Part shown: positions 45,944 through 58,332 of the stretch, in pieces
Layout: every line of letters starts with the position of its first letter
Numbering within the stretch: the first letter of the stretch is position 1
Assembly: GCA_011088105.1 (NCBI GenBank)
Contig: JAALKI010000016.1
Span: 1 to 58,704, forward strand
DNA: 58,704 bases
Direction of reading: 5' to 3'
Origin: Nitrospirota bacterium
GTDB taxonomy: Bacteria; Nitrospirota; Nitrospiria; Nitrospirales; UBA8639
The notes under the pieces: model-generated
What the model saw: the letters and a program-made list of their open reading frames with translations, nothing else
Databases searched by the model: none
Told to the model about the DNA's origin: nothing
Made by a program: the position numbers and the translations under genes

Positions 45944-46594
45944 ATGCATCTGATTTTGGCATCCACGTCCCCCCGTCGACAGGAATTGCTAGCTCTTCTC
46001 GATATTCCATTTGACATCATGTCACCCACCTGTGCAGAAGAATCCACACTTGGGCAACAACCTTCCGACAACGTGCAGCAATTCGCTCTAGAGAAAGCTC
46101 AATCCGTCGCGAATCAGTTTCCAAACAGTCTCGTCCTTGGAGGAGACACACTCATTGAAATTGACCAACATACACTTGGGAAACCTTGGGATATGGCACA
46201 TGCCACCCATATGCTTCGTCAATTACGCGGTCGCTGCCACCAGGTTCATTCTGGCATTAGCTTAGTATGGCAAGGGCGGGAGAGACGCACCACGACAATC
46301 GAAACCACACAGGTTTGGATGAAAGCCTTTACCGAAGAAGATTTGCAGAATTATGTCAAGACAGGAGAAAGTCTAGGAAAAGCCGGGGCTTACTCAATTC
46401 AGGGAAATGGATCGGTCTTGATCGACCGGGTTGAGGGAGACTATCTAAACATTGTGGGCCTTCCTCTATGGGAAGTGGCAACAATCCTTGAGCCATACTA
46501 TCCGCATTGCGCTCAAAAAGCCAAGGAACTCTATCAAACAAAGCTCTATGCAAATTGGCGGGAATTCGCCGCCTCCTCATTCGAACTTACATAA
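45944..46594 (+). CDS. maf: Maf-family nucleotide pyrophosphatase
   Basis: Maf (216 residues) hydrolyses non-canonical or modified nucleoside triphosphates. Motifs: LILASTSPRRQELLALLDI, LGGDTLIEIDQHTLGKPWD, VHSGISLVW and GKAGAYSIQGNGSVLIDRVEGDYLNIVGLPLWEV. ATG 45944 gives the usual N-terminus. It follows dus by 21 bases, so the two are cotranscribed. Its 3' end overlaps the convergent gene by eight bases. Confidence 0.94.
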   Translation: MHLILASTSPRRQELLALLDIPFDIMSPTCAEESTLGQQPSDNVQQFALEKAQSVANQFPNSLVLGGDTLIEIDQHTLGKPWDMAHATHMLRQLRGRCHQVHSGISLVWQGRERRTTTIETTQVWMKAFTEEDLQNYVKTGESLGKAGAYSIQGNGSVLIDRVEGDYLNIVGLPLWEVATILEPYYPHCAQKAKELYQTKLYANWREFAASSFELT

Positions 46595-47327
46595 ATTTCA
46601 TAAACTTGTCTTTTGCCTCATCCATAAGCTCGGCAGATATTGTGGAGACGCCACGTTCTTTGGCAAGCCGTTCAATTTCCTTCCGCGCCATCGGTCGAAT
46701 AAAGTCTGGAATGTTGTCCAAACGCTGTTCGGCCTCTTTGGACCAGGTCATCCCATCCGAGGCATTCTTAGAATCATCCATGACTTGGAGTGTCACTTTG
46801 GTGAACCCCTGTTTACGAGCATAAGCTTCCACGCTGCTACGTACCATCGGCTGAACAAAAGACGGAAGACGATCAAGTCGTTCTTTTGCATCAGGTGTCC
46901 ACGCAATATCCGACTCCGTTCCACTGGCCGGAGCAGACTGGCCGCCAGAGGTTAACCCCATTTCAGCAACCATGGCAGAAAATGGGCAACTCCCACCTTC
47001 GCCTGCTTTGGCTGCTTCACTCGTTTGAGCAGGTGCAATCTGTCCCGCCTGGATTTTTTCATTCAGGTAGTCGGCCATTTGATGCCCAGCCCCAGCCTCT
47101 TCTCGCAGGGTGCCACGAGTCATTTCAAGAGGAGAAGCCGCCGTCGACCGTCCGCCCAATTGCACGCCCAGCGAACTCACCATTTGCGTTTCACCGGGAT
47201 TCGTGACCATGGAAAACTTTGCTTCACAAGATGGACACGCAAAAAACACACCCAGCGACCCTTCCGTGGGCTTTTCCACTTTTTCAAAACTCATATAGGT
47301 TTCACAATTTAAACAGACAAATTTCAT
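46587..47327 (-). CDS. Zinc-ribbon protein with two PCP_red domains
   Basis: A 246-residue protein. The N-terminus is a zinc ribbon (CLNCETYM and FACPSCEAKF). A disordered middle with one Cys (GGSCPFSAM) follows. The C-terminal half holds two copies of the small domain found at the end of protochlorophyllide reductase ChlB/BchB (PCP_red): WTPDAKERLDRLPSFVQPMVRSSVEAYARKQGFTKVTLQVM and WSKEAEQRLDNIPDFIRPMARKEIERLAKERGVSTISAELM. No bacteriochlorophyll genes are present. ATG 47327 follows AGGAG. It lies directly after an Mrp-type ATPase gene, so a role in Fe-S or cofactor handling is plausible but unproven. Confidence 0.85.
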   Translation of the reverse strand: MKFVCLNCETYMSFEKVEKPTEGSLGVFFACPSCEAKFSMVTNPGETQMVSSLGVQLGGRSTAASPLEMTRGTLREEAGAGHQMADYLNEKIQAGQIAPAQTSEAAKAGEGGSCPFSAMVAEMGLTSGGQSAPASGTESDIAWTPDAKERLDRLPSFVQPMVRSSVEAYARKQGFTKVTLQVMDDSKNASDGMTWSKEAEQRLDNIPDFIRPMARKEIERLAKERGVSTISAELMDEAKDKFMKFM

Positions 47328-47377
47328 AGTGATTCTCCTAGGAAGCACCCCACCAATGATGCTGTCCTTTCTACATT

Positions 47378-48292
47378 TTATAGTTTTTCAGCCAGCACCT
47401 TTTTATAATCCAACAACGCTTGCACATTGCCTGCAATGTCCTGAAATCGTTGAATCGTGGGATAGGACGAATCAAGCAAAGGCTGGCCTTTATCAAAAGT
47501 TCGGGCAAATGATCGATCAAAGGGAATCCTGCCCAATAATGGCAAATGTAAGGCCTCACACATAACTTCTGTGTTGCCTTCAAACAAGGCATTCTCCTCA
47601 CCACAAGACGGACAACGATATTGACTCATATTTTCGATCACCCCTAAAACGGTGATCCCCAGTTCTCGCGCATAACCAATTGACTTCTGAACAACATTTG
47701 AGGCCACTTCTGATGGTGTCGTGACCACAATAGCCCCAACGAGATCAGGCAGAAACCCAGCCAGTACAGGCGGTTTATCTGCAGCAGCTCCAGGCGGCAA
47801 GTCGGCTAACAGAATATCAAGGTCTCCCCAAACAACATCGGCCAAAAATTCTCGGATGACATTCATTTCCATGAGCCCTAACCAGACAGGGCTCAGGTCC
47901 ATCGGTCCCTTCCAACGGACGGGCCCCGAATCCTTTAGAAAAAATTCCATGGATGCCACTTTGATGCCAAGAGGCCCCACAGGCGGTATGGCACCTTCAG
48001 CGGTCATCGCTAACGGCTGTCCGGGAATTCCCAACATTTGCGGAATACACGGACCATTCAAGTCAACATCCAAAATACCCATCCGATACCCTTGACGAGC
48101 CAAGGCCAAGGCAAGATTCACGGTAGTCATACTTTTCCCAACACCGCCTTTTCCACTCATGATCACGAGTTTATGCCGAATCCCGGCCATGCGGCGCTGC
48201 ACCATGTGAGTTTGCTCCGTAATCTGCTGCACCACTTTGGCGTCGTCAGTGTATTGGAGCTTATGCAAAATGGATTTCAGATCTTTTTCCAT
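47378..48292 (-). CDS. mrp: Mrp/NBP35-family iron-sulfur carrier ATPase
   Basis: A 304-residue P-loop ATPase that transfers Fe-S clusters to apoproteins. Deviant Walker A MSGKGGVGKSMTTVNLALALA (about 45-58), switch region GILDVDLNGPCIPQMLG, VIENMSQYRCPSCGEENALF with the CxxC that bridges the cluster in the dimer, and LLGRIPFDRSF. The N-terminal DUF59 domain of classical Mrp is replaced by a short helical region. The product probably works with the PCP_red protein encoded just downstream on the same strand. Confidence 0.93.
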   Translation of the reverse strand: MEKDLKSILHKLQYTDDAKVVQQITEQTHMVQRRMAGIRHKLVIMSGKGGVGKSMTTVNLALALARQGYRMGILDVDLNGPCIPQMLGIPGQPLAMTAEGAIPPVGPLGIKVASMEFFLKDSGPVRWKGPMDLSPVWLGLMEMNVIREFLADVVWGDLDILLADLPPGAAADKPPVLAGFLPDLVGAIVVTTPSEVASNVVQKSIGYARELGITVLGVIENMSQYRCPSCGEENALFEGNTEVMCEALHLPLLGRIPFDRSFARTFDKGQPLLDSSYPTIQRFQDIAGNVQALLDYKKVLAEKL

Positions 48293-48388: not shown

Positions 48389-50260
48389 TTACTGGGCTAA
48401 TGGAATTTCCGCACTGGTATTGAGACGAGCCATGGGAGGCACCACTTCCGCAACAGATTCAAGATCTTGAATCATTTCTCCAACGGTAATCCCCCCATCT
48501 TGATTGCGATCAGCTCGCCCCAGTAACCCAGAAAGCAGCTTAGCTGGATCATGCAATGGCTGTTGTGTTGTGCGTCTAATCTGAATAACCGTTGCAGCCT
48601 CCTGATCATCAGTTTGGGCAAGCGCATCGTGCCATTTGGGAGAGGGTATTCCACTTTTTTTACCTTCTCGTAGTCGGCTAAAACTGTTCGTGAGAGGCGC
48701 ATCGAGAAACAACAGCGCGAGTCGTACATCCAGCTTCCCTAGCACCCGTTGAAGCGTTTTGAGAGAAATCAAGCGGCTCTTGGATGCTCGGGGAGAACCT
48801 TCATAGGGAACCACATACACTTCACCTGTCTTATGGTCAATAAGGGTATGGCCAGCATAATAGAGGACCAACACTGATTCCTTTGTCATACGTGGCATCG
48901 CCCAGGAAAAGAGCGCTTCCTCGATATCCGTTTTGGTCGCATGCGCATTCTCGAGAGTCCGGATGTGGTCAGATACAAATATACCGGTAGACTGCAAGGC
49001 ATCACGTAACGCCTGGATAGGCTCGTTGACTATCTGCTGTTTTCCTATCCACGAGTCACGATACTCACCTAGTCCAATCAGAATAGCATAATACGGTGAG
49101 TCCGAATCGTCTGCTTCGAGAGGCACGTCTTCCTGAGGCTGCGCTGGAAGAACAGCAGGACGGGATGTATGTTCTCGCTGGAGATCTTCCAGAAGCACAG
49201 CCCTTTTACTTGGCTGGATAGCTGCCAGAATACGATGGGTCCCAGCCGAAATACCATCTGGGGTCCGAACAGACACAATCAATTCACCTCTGGCTTTTTC
49301 AGATAATGAAGGCATCAGCCCACGAACCTCGGTCATTTTTGTTTCACCTGGCTGGAGGACTCCCATGGTGACAGGCCCTTCTGTCACTTGTGAAAATGCT
49401 TTCAGAATGATCTGCGTCCCACTCAATTCGACTAACGCCGATGCAATGGGGACAATCCCTTTATTGGTTACCTCTATCTGCAAGATCAGCTTCTCTCCGC
49501 CCTCAAGCACAAGATTATCGTTACCATCTTGAAGCAACGTCCGGAAGGACAATGCGGAAGCCGAAGCAACAGCCTGAGGGACAGGAGGAAATGTGGTCTG
49601 GGGAAGAACTGGATTTTGGGCAACGGTTCCTGGTGTTGGCGGTTGACCAAAGAGCTGTGGCATTCGATCCGATAGGTCCTTGGCTAAAATTTCCGCAGCA
49701 TCGTAAAACTCCTGATCAAACTGGCCCGTCGAACACGATGATGACTGACTACTTAATTCTGGCACCCACATTCGAGTCGTATCGTGATAGACCAATGGGG
49801 CTTTCGCAACATGATTGCCTTGGGCATCAATGAAAATGGCGAGAAGTTCAAGATCAATCGTCGCATTATAACGATCTTCCTCTCCTGACCGATTAATCGC
49901 ATCAAATACCTGATTGGCCAGGCTGACTTGAATGACCACATTGGTTGACGCGCTCGCAGTGCTTGGCTGACCTGCCTGGTGAGTAGTCACGGAAGCAAAT
50001 CGGTCCTGACTGACATCCAGAAACGCTTGCCTAATAATGTCACCGGTCGGAATGGTGTACGAAAATCCACAGGCATCTACCTCTAGAGAAGCTTGATTCA
50101 ATTGCGGATCAAAGTCGTAAGCGACCGAAATTGGCAGATACGTGGTCGGCTCCTCCTCAAAAGTCAGACGGGGAATACTAATTTGATTACACGATACCAA
50201 TAGGGCACAACTTACCCCAAGAAGGAGGCACACCCGCATGATTGGTGTAAAAAATTGCAC
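48389..50260 (-). CDS. Lipoprotein with degenerate caspase-like domain and EF-hand
   Basis: A 623-residue protein of mixed make-up. A lipoprotein signal (LLVSC, Cys24) anchors it. Residues about 30-220 form a domain I do not know; 230-350 look like an immunoglobulin-like or CARDB-type beta domain (ILQIEVTNKGIVPI, MGVLQPGETKMTEV). Residues about 388-590 resemble peptidase C14: YYAILIGLGEY, VLVLYYAGHTLIDHKTGEVYVVPY with the His at 471, LALLFLDAP. The catalytic Cys expected after LDA is Pro522, so it should be inactive as a protease. A Ca2+-binding EF-hand follows (DRNQDGGITVGEM, 584-596). Start is GTG 50260; ATG 50239 is possible. Confidence 0.8.
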   Translation of the reverse strand: MQFFTPIMRVCLLLGVSCALLVSCNQISIPRLTFEEEPTTYLPISVAYDFDPQLNQASLEVDACGFSYTIPTGDIIRQAFLDVSQDRFASVTTHQAGQPSTASASTNVVIQVSLANQVFDAINRSGEEDRYNATIDLELLAIFIDAQGNHVAKAPLVYHDTTRMWVPELSSQSSSCSTGQFDQEFYDAAEILAKDLSDRMPQLFGQPPTPGTVAQNPVLPQTTFPPVPQAVASASALSFRTLLQDGNDNLVLEGGEKLILQIEVTNKGIVPIASALVELSGTQIILKAFSQVTEGPVTMGVLQPGETKMTEVRGLMPSLSEKARGELIVSVRTPDGISAGTHRILAAIQPSKRAVLLEDLQREHTSRPAVLPAQPQEDVPLEADDSDSPYYAILIGLGEYRDSWIGKQQIVNEPIQALRDALQSTGIFVSDHIRTLENAHATKTDIEEALFSWAMPRMTKESVLVLYYAGHTLIDHKTGEVYVVPYEGSPRASKSRLISLKTLQRVLGKLDVRLALLFLDAPLTNSFSRLREGKKSGIPSPKWHDALAQTDDQEAATVIQIRRTTQQPLHDPAKLLSGLLGRADRNQDGGITVGEMIQDLESVAEVVPPMARLNTSAEIPLAQ

Positions 50261-50591
50261 GGGGGTACCCTACCCTATGGTTCTTTTATGATGCAACAAT
50301 TTCAATGGAATGTACTCCAGCAGAAAAAACCTTCGTTGAGCGCCTCGTACTTCTCTAGCAGGTTTTCCAGAAAGTCCCATTGAAAGTGCTTGATACAGTC
50401 ATGAGAAAAGACATCGATCGATAACAGCATATCGGCCAGGGAGATGACTTGACACTCAACGCGTTCCTAGCCGATGCAACTACTTTTCTTTTGATATGAG
50501 TGGCTTGCCACACTTGACCTATTTGAGGTTGACCCGTGACAATATCTCTATGGAAGATCGTGCCACACAATGTTCTGATAGGAGGTGTACG
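50261..50591. other. Spacer upstream of the tandem lipoprotein genes
   Basis: No secure gene. On the minus strand about 50302-50466 reads RVECQVISLADMLLSIDVFSHDC then LENLLEKYEALNEG, protein-like but short and without a start signal, so it may be a relic. The 90 bases before 50592 are similar to those before the second lipoprotein gene (ACAATATCTCTATG and the ribosome-binding site), a trace of tandem duplication. Confidence 0.5.
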
Positions 50592-51347
50592 ATGAGTCGC
50601 TTTCCTCTAATTGCTGGCATCCTCTTTGTCGCGTTTCTGAACACCGGCTGTGGGTCAGGACTTCACCCCAAGATGCCTGAATATCTAGGAACTGCTAAAG
50701 GTATAGTAAACACCGACCAACTACGCTCCTTGTCCGATTTGCAATCAAAAACAGGGTTGCTCATCATCAACGATACAACCGCCAAGGATTCCGCTCCTCC
50801 TTTATCTCAAGACCAGCTTGCAGCTTTAACCCAATGGATACAAGGACGGATTAATCAAGATCTTTCCATCATCGCAGATCAGGTTGTGACTCCCCAAGAC
50901 CTTACCCCAAAGGGAATACGTCAATTTGTACAGACAGGAAAAGAACAAGGGTTGGGCCACCTGATGTTAGTCATTATTTCAAGTTCTGAGATTGAAGTTC
51001 CAGACCAGTTTCCGTTGTGTGGGAGAGTTCAAGGAGGGGTTGGTTGCGGAACGACATTAGGATTTCATGCGGAAAACTATGCCCTCGCGGAAATAGCTAT
51101 TTTGGATGTGACCACCAGTCATATACTGCTTCAAGCTGACGGCCAAGACTGGGCATCTCTTGATAGACTGAACATTCCTCTGGAATCCAATCTTTATCCG
51201 GTCATTTATCGAGCCCAGGGAACCGCACCCATTTATCCAACAGAAGAAGGGGCTCATGAGGTCTTGCGTGGGGTAGCAGCCAGCGAAGCCATGATCCAGG
51301 CTATTATGCATCTCAAGGAAGCCTGGACCAACCATCTTCCTACATAA
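50592..51347 (+). CDS. Lipoprotein paralogue 1, unknown function
   Basis: A 251-residue lipoprotein I do not recognise. ATG 50592 follows AGGAGGT; the signal ends FLNTGC (Cys about 18). The mature protein has a strand-helix pattern: KTGLLIINDTTAKDSAPPLSQDQLAALTQWI, LGHLMLVIISSSEIEVPDQFPLCGRVQGG, AEIAILDVTTSHILLQADGQDWASLDRL and SEAMIQAIMHLKEAW. This suggests a TolB/GNA1162-like fold for an envelope accessory protein, which is weak inference. A paralogue lies 1.08 kb downstream and shares an identical 3' end. Confidence 0.8.
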   Translation: MSRFPLIAGILFVAFLNTGCGSGLHPKMPEYLGTAKGIVNTDQLRSLSDLQSKTGLLIINDTTAKDSAPPLSQDQLAALTQWIQGRINQDLSIIADQVVTPQDLTPKGIRQFVQTGKEQGLGHLMLVIISSSEIEVPDQFPLCGRVQGGVGCGTTLGFHAENYALAEIAILDVTTSHILLQADGQDWASLDRLNIPLESNLYPVIYRAQGTAPIYPTEEGAHEVLRGVAASEAMIQAIMHLKEAWTNHLPT

Positions 51348-51493: not shown

Positions 51494-51667
51494 TCCCAGA
51501 ACTTTCTGGTGTCTGAGAGTGCATCTCAGTGGCAATCTACTATCGAGAGATTTTTGAATTATTTCCATGATGATGATAAGGCGATGTCCCTTGACCAATC
51601 TGTCGTTGCCCCATGACAATATCTCTATGAAGGTTGTGCTATGAAATCTTCTAACGAGGAGGTTACG

Positions 51668-52426
51668 ATGAATCGCCTTCACATAATAGCTGGTATTCTC
51701 TTTGTGGCGTTTCTAAACAACGGTTGTGGGTCAGGACTTCACCCCAAGATGCCTGAATATCTGGGAGCAGCCAAAGGGTTAGAACACACCGGTCAATTAC
51801 ACGCCTTCGCAAGTTCGCAACCTAAAACAGGGTTGCTCATTATTAACGATACAACCGCCATGGATTCCGCTCCTCCTTTATCCCAAGATCAGTTTGCAGC
51901 TTTCACTCAATGGGTGCGAGAACGGATTAACCAGGATTTTCCCATCACTGTGGATGAGATTGTTCTCTCTCAAGACATCGTCCCAAATGGAATGGTAAGA
52001 CAATTTGTTCAGGCAGGAGAGGCACGAGGGTTAGACCATTTAGTATTGGTCATTCTTTCAAGCTCTGAAACTGAAGTTCCAGACCAGTTTCCGTTAGGTG
52101 GTGTTGTCCAAGGGGGAATTGGTCGAGGAAGGGTCCTGGGATTTCATGCAGAAAATTATGCCTTTGCGGAAATAGCTATTTTGGATGTGACCACCAGTCA
52201 TATACTGCTTCAAGCTGACGGCCAAGACTGGGCATCTCTTGATAGACTGAACATTCCTCTGGAATCCAATCTTTATCCGGTCATTTATCGAGCCCAGGGA
52301 ACCGCACCCATTTATCCAACAGAAGAAGGGGCTCATGAGGTCTTGCGTGGGGTAGCAGCCAGCGAAGCCATGATCCAGGCTATTATGCATCTCAAGGAAG
52401 CCTGGACCAACCATCTTCCTACATAA
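51668..52426 (+). CDS. Lipoprotein paralogue 2, unknown function
   Basis: A 252-residue paralogue of the protein encoded at 50592-51347. ATG 51668 follows GAGGAGG; signal ends FLNNGC. The first two thirds differ at many positions (for example GGVVQGGIGRGRVLGFHAENY against GRVQGGVGCGTTLGFHAENY), but the last 87 residues are identical. Both lack known catalytic motifs. They are probably outer-membrane-attached periplasmic proteins; their separate N-terminal parts may have different partners. Confidence 0.8.
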   Translation: MNRLHIIAGILFVAFLNNGCGSGLHPKMPEYLGAAKGLEHTGQLHAFASSQPKTGLLIINDTTAMDSAPPLSQDQFAAFTQWVRERINQDFPITVDEIVLSQDIVPNGMVRQFVQAGEARGLDHLVLVILSSSETEVPDQFPLGGVVQGGIGRGRVLGFHAENYAFAEIAILDVTTSHILLQADGQDWASLDRLNIPLESNLYPVIYRAQGTAPIYPTEEGAHEVLRGVAASEAMIQAIMHLKEAWTNHLPT

Positions 52427-55725: not shown

Positions 55726-58332
55726 ATGTTGCATCATCTTATAGCTTGGCAAAGGCATAGTATAAAGAAGAGCATGATGATCTCAAGGCTATTTCCTAAC
55801 CGTACACTGTATCGAGGCCCAGGCATGAGAACTCAGCCAGAACGGGTCGTCCTCGATGTGGCAGAAGGCGTTGTCCCCAGTCCTAAACCACCCGTCCGCA
55901 TTTTTATTGGAACAGAACCAGCACAGTATCGAGCGGAACGAGTATTTGTTTGGTCCATCGAACAAGCCCGGGATCCTGCTCGCGTGTATGAGATTTACCT
56001 CATGAAAGAATTGGCGAGGTTTAATCGCTCGAAATGGACAACAGGTTTTACCAATTATCGCTTTGCGATTCCTCATTTTACCAATGGCGTGGGACGCGCT
56101 ATTTACAATGATGTCGATCAAATTTACCTTTGTGATCCTGGGGAATTATTCGACCTGGACATGAACAATCATGGTTTTCTGGCCATTTCCGAAACAGAAT
56201 CTTCAGTCATGCTAATTGATTGTGAACGGATGGCCAATATCTGGGAATTCGAGTCAGCCTGTCATTCCCCTAAGAAAACATTGCTTGCCAAAGCCCTTGC
56301 CCTTCCCAACCTGTATGGCCCTCTAGAACCAGCATGGAATACACGAGACGAAGAATACCACCCAGATCACGCAAAGCTGTTACATTACACAACACTCCAT
56401 ACGCAACCGTGGCGCCCTTTCCCACAGTATTTTGTCTATGAGGACCATCCTTTTGCTGACGTGTGGTTGTCTCTAGAACAATCGGCAGACGATGTTGGAG
56501 CCCAAGTGTTTACCAAGCATCGTCCTAGCCAACGCTTTGGACAATGCCTTACCTCCTCTCAGAACCACCTGGAAGAACGGAACACCCCAGCAACGCTTGA
56601 CATTGAGCAAGAAAAACCATGCTCCCATTTGTCGTATTCCACTCACAAGGAAGCTATTACACAGCTCATTCAAAAAGTCCAAGCGAAGACGATCCTTGAT
56701 TATGGGCCCGAGATGAGGCAAGGGTCAGGTACAATCTGCAACAGCAGCACTGCCTCTTCATTGAACGAACAAAATTTCATGGAGACTGTACGGCTCACCC
56801 GCTATAATCCTGCCTCCACAGTTCCTTCGGAGTCCCCTGAACCTCAATATGATGGCGTGATTTGTTTGAATTTCCTTGACTGTCTTCCAGAAGATGATGT
56901 CCCCTGGGTTTTGGACGAAGCATTCAAACATGCCCGTTATTTCATCTATGCATCAATTATAGCCAATCCCTCATCTCACCAACGGCCTGCAGAGAAAACC
57001 ATAGTGCGAAATAAAAAAACCCTTGATTGGTGGGAAGCACAGTTTCATGCAACCGCGAAACGGTATCCTCACCTTCACTGGGAATTAGCTATTGAATCCT
57101 CATCGAGAAAAACCGGAAATAATCTGTACTTTTGTCAAGGCGGTCGCTTTTTAAGCGGTGAAAATCCAAGAGTCTGGGTTATTACAGATGATCGTCCAGG
57201 AAATACCACACAATCTCTTGGATTAGCCGATGCTCTCGGATGGTCTTATGAAAAGAAACCATTGAATTTCATAACATCGCGCGTATTCCATCGTCGACGG
57301 TCCAAGAATCCCTTGCCTGGCATGACTCCGTCTTCGTTGTCCTTACTTGTTCCTCCGTGGCCCGATGTGGTGATTGCCGCTGGAAAACGGACAGCCGCCG
57401 TTTCTCGTTGGATTGGAGAACAGAGCCTTGGTCGAACACGACTCGTCCACCTTGGAAGAAAAGGGGGACAACTGGCTGACTCATTCGACCTTGTGGTCAC
57501 ACCTCGATACTGTCGGTTGTTGCCTCACCCCAAACGGATTATGACCGTTGCCCCCCTACATCAGGTCACAGCCAAACGACTGGCAGAAGCCCGAAAGGAG
57601 TTCTCCCAACTATTTGATTCGATGCCATCTCCTCATGTGGTTCTCCTTGTTGGAGGTACCACACCTCGGTACACGCTTGATGCTCCCACGGCTTTTAAAA
57701 TGGGAGCAGAAGTCCAAGCCTTTGCCCAAAAAGCAGGAGGCAGTGTATTAGCTGTCACCAGTCGCCGAACAGGCAAAAAAGCTATTGAGGCTCTCCGTCA
57801 AGCCCTTGGAAATTCCGGTTCCATACACGAATGGCAGCCAGAACAATCCAAAAATCCCTACTGGGGTTATCTGGCATCGGCGGATGTGCTTGTTGTCACA
57901 GGCGAAAGTGAATCGATGCTGTCGGAAGCTTCGGCTACAGGCAAACCACTTTATATCTATCCCATACCAGAACAGTCCCCAACCCTCACAAGGCGAATTG
58001 GAGAATGGATCCTAACGCGGGCACATTCCCGTCCTTTAAATAATCGAGGCACTGCGCGACCACAGCAACGACTGGAATATTTCTGTGCCTGGCTTATTTC
58101 AGAAGGGATTGTGCTTCCTCCTCGCGATTTATCAGCTCTTCATCAAAGTTTGAACAACTCAGGTATTGCACACATGTTTGGAGCAGCTTTTCAAACTGAC
58201 CATCGACCACCGTTCTATGAAGCCAACCAGGTTGCTCAGCGGGTACGAGCCCTTTTAGGGTTTGATGTGCATCATTCGGTTAATGGACGGACTAATACTG
58301 TCCCACTCATGGCTTCTGAGGCATCTTCCTGA
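55726..58332 (+). CDS. Glycosyltransferase/methyltransferase-like/ELM1 fusion protein
   Basis: An 868-residue, three-part protein. Residues about 56-260 are a GT-A fold sugar transferase of GT8-like type (VRIFIGTEPAQYRAERVFVWSIEQ and the metal-binding YNDVDQIYLCDP at 127-138). About 305-500 is a worn SAM methyltransferase domain: TILDYGPEMRQGSG replaces the usual DYGCGKG, then YDGVICLNFLDCLPEDDVPWVLDE. About 510-810 is an ELM1/GtrOC1 domain (VWVITDDRPGNTTQSLGLADALG, DVVIAAGKRTAAVSRWI, LVHLGRKGG, VLLVGGTTPRYTLD, TSRRTGKKAIEAL, DVLVVTGESESMLSEASATGKPLYIYP). It probably makes a cell-surface glycan. The start may also be ATG 55774 or 55777 after AAGAAGAG. Confidence 0.85.
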   Translation: MLHHLIAWQRHSIKKSMMISRLFPNRTLYRGPGMRTQPERVVLDVAEGVVPSPKPPVRIFIGTEPAQYRAERVFVWSIEQARDPARVYEIYLMKELARFNRSKWTTGFTNYRFAIPHFTNGVGRAIYNDVDQIYLCDPGELFDLDMNNHGFLAISETESSVMLIDCERMANIWEFESACHSPKKTLLAKALALPNLYGPLEPAWNTRDEEYHPDHAKLLHYTTLHTQPWRPFPQYFVYEDHPFADVWLSLEQSADDVGAQVFTKHRPSQRFGQCLTSSQNHLEERNTPATLDIEQEKPCSHLSYSTHKEAITQLIQKVQAKTILDYGPEMRQGSGTICNSSTASSLNEQNFMETVRLTRYNPASTVPSESPEPQYDGVICLNFLDCLPEDDVPWVLDEAFKHARYFIYASIIANPSSHQRPAEKTIVRNKKTLDWWEAQFHATAKRYPHLHWELAIESSSRKTGNNLYFCQGGRFLSGENPRVWVITDDRPGNTTQSLGLADALGWSYEKKPLNFITSRVFHRRRSKNPLPGMTPSSLSLLVPPWPDVVIAAGKRTAAVSRWIGEQSLGRTRLVHLGRKGGQLADSFDLVVTPRYCRLLPHPKRIMTVAPLHQVTAKRLAEARKEFSQLFDSMPSPHVVLLVGGTTPRYTLDAPTAFKMGAEVQAFAQKAGGSVLAVTSRRTGKKAIEALRQALGNSGSIHEWQPEQSKNPYWGYLASADVLVVTGESESMLSEASATGKPLYIYPIPEQSPTLTRRIGEWILTRAHSRPLNNRGTARPQQRLEYFCAWLISEGIVLPPRDLSALHQSLNNSGIAHMFGAAFQTDHRPPFYEANQVAQRVRALLGFDVHHSVNGRTNTVPLMASEASS

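Follow-up and report, generated by a model that had tools for sequence, protein, structure and literature searches.

The window analysed here, a contig of 58,704 bp from a Nitrospirota bacterium, encodes near its 3′-end a protein of 868 amino acids, in which a GT8-type glycosyltransferase domain, a degenerate methyltransferase-like module and an ELM1 domain are fused, and which probably functions as a dual-site glycosyltransferase on a ceramide-derived lipid. We infer the activity of both sites, their order of action, their donors and the acceptor. The component families are all known; what appears to be new is the three-part architecture and the sphingolipid context. Neither was found in the literature searched, most subscription journals lying outside its coverage. 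The same searches disclosed no paper in which Nitrospira is named along with both sphingolipid and serine palmitoyltransferase (SPT), and a query for BFO_1060 returned nothing.

The gene (55726..58332, + strand) is an open reading frame of 868 codons plus stop, without internal stops. An intact frame was thus found exactly where a previous reading of the sequence alone had placed a three-domain protein, and the domains named there (a GT8-like GT-A domain with a DxD-like motif, a worn methyltransferase and ELM1) were supported by Pfam scores, invariant motifs and profile relatives. Since the relatives begin near residue 24 and a ribosome-binding site is not evident at 55726, the true start is probably located slightly downstream, at M17, M18 or M34. 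The whole protein gave no useful match in NCBIfam or in a sequence search of the PDB, and solved structures useful as relatives were not found by sequence with any of the three domain profiles. Structure prediction, suggested as a check on the domain reading, turned out poor for the full chain (pLDDT 56, shallow alignment), so that the packing of the domains is not readable from this low-confidence model. Its top Foldseek matches were mostly GT-B-fold enzymes, which echo the GT-B part only. The isolated middle module reached a pLDDT of 71 and appeared Rossmann-like (see below).

A scan of genome contigs and 60 related genomes yielded 16 further full-length relatives, which were aligned and which revealed the same three parts at 43-48% identity. 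Fourteen of them originate from Nitrospirales or Nitrospirae records, the other two (L002 and L006) from MAGs grouped with Myxococcota and Pseudomonadota. Searches around the genomes of the latter two disclosed a second copy in genome G238 and two in G257; in G630 the protein is split. The search for the same architecture, also suggested beforehand, thus identified the fusion in 16 aligned relatives and, in further copies, in other phyla. An assembly chimera or a chance fusion was ruled out by the full-length fusion in many genomes. Identity to the relatives was 55-61% in the glycosyltransferase part, 18-27% in the middle and 46-54% in the ELM1 part. Judged by these alignments, both transferase domains are constrained, whereas the middle module is not.

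In trees of both outer domains the window protein fell outside the main operonic group of the Nitrospirales. In the ELM1 tree, which contained several long branches, it grouped, moderately supported (92/86), with ELM1 proteins of the same family that stand alone. Upstream remnants, by which these stand-alone proteins might be recognised as N-terminally truncated fusions, were sought and not found. As some relatives use ELM1 without a GT8 part, several of them beside a GT61 gene, the GT8 and ELM1 activities need not be coupled. At three loci (L057, L059, L060) a stand-alone ELM1 gene lacks the GT8 part and has genes for a GT61 glycosyltransferase and a TIGR04396 protein in its vicinity. At another locus (L053, contig C253 of G237) the C-terminus of a fusion, a second ELM1 gene and a GT8 protein follow each other in a row, and a 2OG-Fe(II) oxygenase-like gene recurs near or beside fusion or ELM1 genes (L052, L058, L060, L066).

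The N-terminal GT-A domain (residues ~36-282; 55831..56571, + strand) scored 22.9 bits with Glyco_transf_8 (PF01501), just below the cut-off of 24.3. A profile made of this domain found proteins lacking ELM1 at E values of about 1e-18 to 1e-21, and all four of these that were scanned exceeded the PF01501 cut-off (25.0-38.3 bits). Two motifs are invariant in all 17 members of the family. The first, N128-D129-V-D131-Q132 (56107..56121, +), is a DxD motif for metal and nucleotide binding, in which N128, D129, D131 and Q132 are the invariant positions; the second, H220-x(6)-Q227-P228-W229 (56383..56412, +), is presumably the counterpart of the GT8 motif HxxGxxKPW. It reads H-Y-T-x-x-H-x-Q-P-W, with the histidine and PW kept and the G and K of H-x-x-G-x-x-K-P-W replaced. 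The assignment to GT8 is strengthened by both invariant motifs and by the profile relatives above the cut-off, and we regard it as good but indirect. With the GT8 family, to which LgtC, glycogenin and IPUT1 belong, the domain shares the DxD, the C-terminal H..PW and these profile relatives; it differs by the score under the cut-off, by the glutamine in place of the lysine of KPW and by the fusion to two other domains.

The middle module (residues 283-478; 56572..57159, +) is degenerate and resembles class I methyltransferases, with SAM motif I lost. In the window protein the Methyltransf_12 match was weak (Pfam, E=0.07), and three Pfam methyltransferase families matched seven, four and two of the 17 members, all weakly. 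The model of the isolated module (pLDDT 71, pTM 0.68) exhibited the alternating element order of class I methyltransferases together with a terminal pair of strands. Many methyltransferases were among its Foldseek matches, the best with E=0.003 and none with E<=0.001. The family matches and the Foldseek results would also be in line with a working or regulatory methyltransferase, by which the protein additionally methylates the glycan. This we hold to be very improbable: motif I (GxGxG) is missing in the window protein and in every relative, the module is the least conserved part of the chain, and its sequence profile found no solved methyltransferase in the PDB. An active methyltransferase in the relatives, which the previous reading had proposed to look for, was hence not found, while its description of the module as worn was borne out. 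We read the module as a pseudo-enzyme spacer.

The C-terminal domain (residues 479-850; 57160..58275, +), of GT-B type, scored 207.6 bits with PF06258 (ELM1; cut-off 27, E=3e-61); all 17 members matched this family. Two short stretches stand out. S679-R680-R681-T682 (57760..57771, +) corresponds to the SRRT motif of KdoT, with S679, R681 and T682 invariant and R680 being either R or P. V724-T-G-E-S-E-S-M731 (57895..57918, +) is a near-invariant loop with V724, T725, G726, E729 and S730 invariant, and is a candidate for the donor-binding loop. KdoT (A1S_2903), an ELM1-like protein of Acinetobacter, is a recently proven CMP-Kdo transferase acting on a lipid acceptor, Kdo2-lipid IVA, and mutants showed that its R180 matters, whereas R179 does not (PMC12856342). 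Conservation within the fusion family mirrors these mutants in that the needed arginine is invariant and the dispensable one varies, although the search had not been designed to yield such an agreement. The two proteins are alike in the ELM1 family, in an SRRT-type motif with an invariant second arginine (compared by its published description) and in a plausible lipid-linked acceptor. Moreover, a family search of the window genome identified the CMP-Kdo synthase KdsB as well as WaaA. They differ in that KdoT is a free protein of ~35 kDa encoded in an LOS core locus, whereas here ELM1 is the last domain of a chain of 868 aa, whose gene is linked to SPT in the relatives. For plant ELM1, recruitment of a dynamin-related protein has been described, and by analogy the domain might be a non-catalytic scaffold, leaving GT8 as the only active part. 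The invariant catalytic arginine of SRRT, the GT-B fold similarity suggested by the model, the proven activity of KdoT and the retention of stand-alone ELM1 beside other glycosyltransferases all speak against such a role, and we consider it most unlikely.

The acceptor is suggested by the gene order in the relatives. In nine Nitrospirales loci (L004, L005, L007, L008, L010, L011, L061, L063 and L084) the fusion gene lies directly 3′ of SPT, separated by tens of bases. The identity of SPT is firm (NCBIfam NF047599, 626.5 vs. a cut-off of 500), the best PDB match being an SPT with 479 bits. Upstream of SPT, genes for a fatty acyl-AMP ligase (795 vs. a cut-off of 600), an NAD epimerase and an ACP were found. 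In the annotated cluster of L061 the order is fatty acyl-AMP ligase, NAD epimerase, ACP, SPT, fusion and a TIGR04396 protein, followed further downstream by a GFO/IDH oxidoreductase, NeuB with cupin, a HAD phosphatase and a CMP-sugar synthetase. On the other side, a GNAT protein, which is a candidate for CerS, and a nucleotidyltransferase are encoded. L004 contains a different pair of NeuB and CMP-sugar synthetase on the opposite strand. In another phylum, one fusion copy of G238 belongs to a comparable SPT cluster, and the split pair of G630 (GT-MT and ELM1) is located ~5 kb from SPT. The best SPT candidates of G237 and G257 scored under the curated cut-off, and none of them was seen next to the fusion.

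Caulobacter possesses an aasR-cerR-acpR-spt set, with cerS in a separate unit (PMC11324152). The clusters described above share with this set and with cerS and cpgD (PMC11324152, PMC12275187) the acyl-ACP/AMP ligase, the epimerase-type reductase, ACP and SPT, and likewise have GNAT and nucleotidyltransferase genes nearby on another unit. In contrast, in Caulobacter phosphoglycerate groups are added by other genes and a GT8-ELM1 fusion has not been described. Such a conserved arrangement speaks for a sphingolipid acceptor of the ceramide type.

Co-occurrence of the genes was determined in 60 genomes. An SPT ortholog with >490 bits was present in all 18 genomes positive for ELM1 or the fusion, but only in four of the 42 negative ones (Fisher p=8e-12; p=5e-4 when genera were counted, phylogeny being otherwise uncorrected). 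One of the 18 positives (G001) has no more than a broken remnant, interrupted by stops and immediately adjacent to SPT; this remnant of a GT8 domain (L083) has also lost the DxD. TIGR04396 exceeded its cut-off in 16 genomes, all of them ELM1-positive, and did so in neither G000 nor G001. The window, which is contig C18 of its genome (2.6 Mb, 97.6% complete), does not carry SPT next to the fusion. SPT (642.6 vs. a cut-off of 500) resides on contig C44, together with ACP, acyl-AMP ligase, epimerase, GNAT and nucleotidyltransferase genes. The link of the window gene itself to sphingolipids is therefore one of orthology and co-presence, not of adjacency. The ACP of the C44 cluster (L082, 10480-10790, - strand) reads GLASMQ at the carrier serine, where the relatives have GLDSLQ.

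The main rival to a ceramide acceptor is a role in the LPS core, where ELM1 would add a Kdo to Kdo-lipid A in the manner of KdoT and GT8 would then attach a further sugar, in the same order as KdoT and LpsB/GnaT. LgtC and other bacterial GT8 enzymes act on LPS, the one bacterial ELM1 enzyme for which biochemical proof was found, KdoT, acts on Kdo2-lipid IVA, and the presence of KdsB and WaaA in the window genome fits as well. Yet the conserved neighbours are sphingolipid genes rather than genes of lipid A or the core, the presence of the gene tracks SPT, and the gene is missing in most relatives of the same order, in which LPS is to be expected. We therefore rate an LPS core function as unlikely.

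The previous reading had envisaged a single chain that polymerises or modifies a surface glycan of unknown kind. Of this suggestion, two glycosyltransferase sites per chain have stood, whereas evidence for polymerisation was not obtained and the gene order favours a sphingolipid acceptor. A capsule-like surface glycan or the glycan of a glycoprotein would agree with the TIGR04396 protein ("surface carbohydrate biosynthesis") 3′ of the fusion in relatives, with NeuB and the CMP-sugar synthetase further downstream, and with the fact that two transferase domains in one chain can make a copolymerase. In the window genome, though, the fusion has been kept while TIGR04396 was not found and NeuB was represented by one match of 35.6 bits only. 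Furthermore, the genes recognised directly next to the fusion include none for a polymerase, a flippase or export, and in relatives it is SPT that lies immediately upstream. A polymerase or modifier of this kind is thus improbable. The NeuB match (Pfam cut-off 22.1, 359-aa frame) is far weaker than the NeuB of the relatives and may be a DAHP synthase. With this match and in view of the absence of TIGR04396, NeuB and a CMP-nonulosonate were not adopted as the source of an obligate donor.

For the fusion acting on ceramide, the following course is proposed. The GT8-type domain, metal-dependent and presumably retaining, would add one sugar from an NDP-hexose or NDP-uronate donor, and the ELM1 domain, GT-B type, KdoT-like and presumably inverting, would add another one, for which a CMP-activated ulosonic acid such as CMP-Kdo is a plausible donor. 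The middle module, putatively a class I methyltransferase by origin and no longer able to bind SAM, would now serve as spacer or scaffold. With a ceramide-derived lipid at the inner membrane as the most likely acceptor, the product would be a sphingolipid with a diglycosylated head group. There are precedents for such reactions: the GT8 enzyme IPUT1 glycosylates a sphingolipid of plants (PMC9317492), and Sgt1 and Sgt2 of Caulobacter add two sugars to ceramide (PMC6445935). The fusion would likewise place two sugars on a bacterial ceramide one after the other, within one chain instead of two separate proteins.

A few genes downstream of the fusion, many relatives encode NeuB and a CMP-sugar synthetase. 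A tentative extension of the proposal, possible though rather doubtful, is that the operon is responsible for a ganglioside-like bacterial lipid, a ceramide that one fused enzyme provides with a hexose (GT8) and with an acidic sugar from the ulosonic Kdo/sialic-acid class (ELM1). For such a product CMP-Kdo would be the donor in the window genome.

Bacterial ELM1 proteins are widely annotated with "mitochondrial fission", and a proven activity was found for one group only, KdoT. The conserved GT8-ELM1 fusion beside SPT offers a second, testable context for this family. It predicts glycosylated sphingolipids in the Nitrospirales, a group known for nitrite oxidation. If this is true, a single protein would furnish a glycosphingolipid with both of its sugars, and might also lead to acidic lipids of the ganglioside kind.

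On its 5′ side, the fusion gene is neighboured by a divergent PGPGW gene, followed by CstA, YajQ/DUF520 and others, and 372 bp downstream of it the contig ends. Some other genes of the window deserve mention. Tandem duplicate genes at 50496-51347 and 51641-52426 (+ strand) encode a secreted-looking protein without a Pfam family and are 85% identical at the DNA level over 852 bp. The gene at 48389-50260 (- strand) revealed a weak match to the caspase-like Peptidase_C14 (20.0 bits vs. 21.4), in which, as judged by eye, the position of the catalytic cysteine may be changed. Adjoining genes at 46587-47348 and 47378-48292 (- strand) encode a PCP_red-domain protein and a P-loop NTPase of the NUBPL/ParA type.
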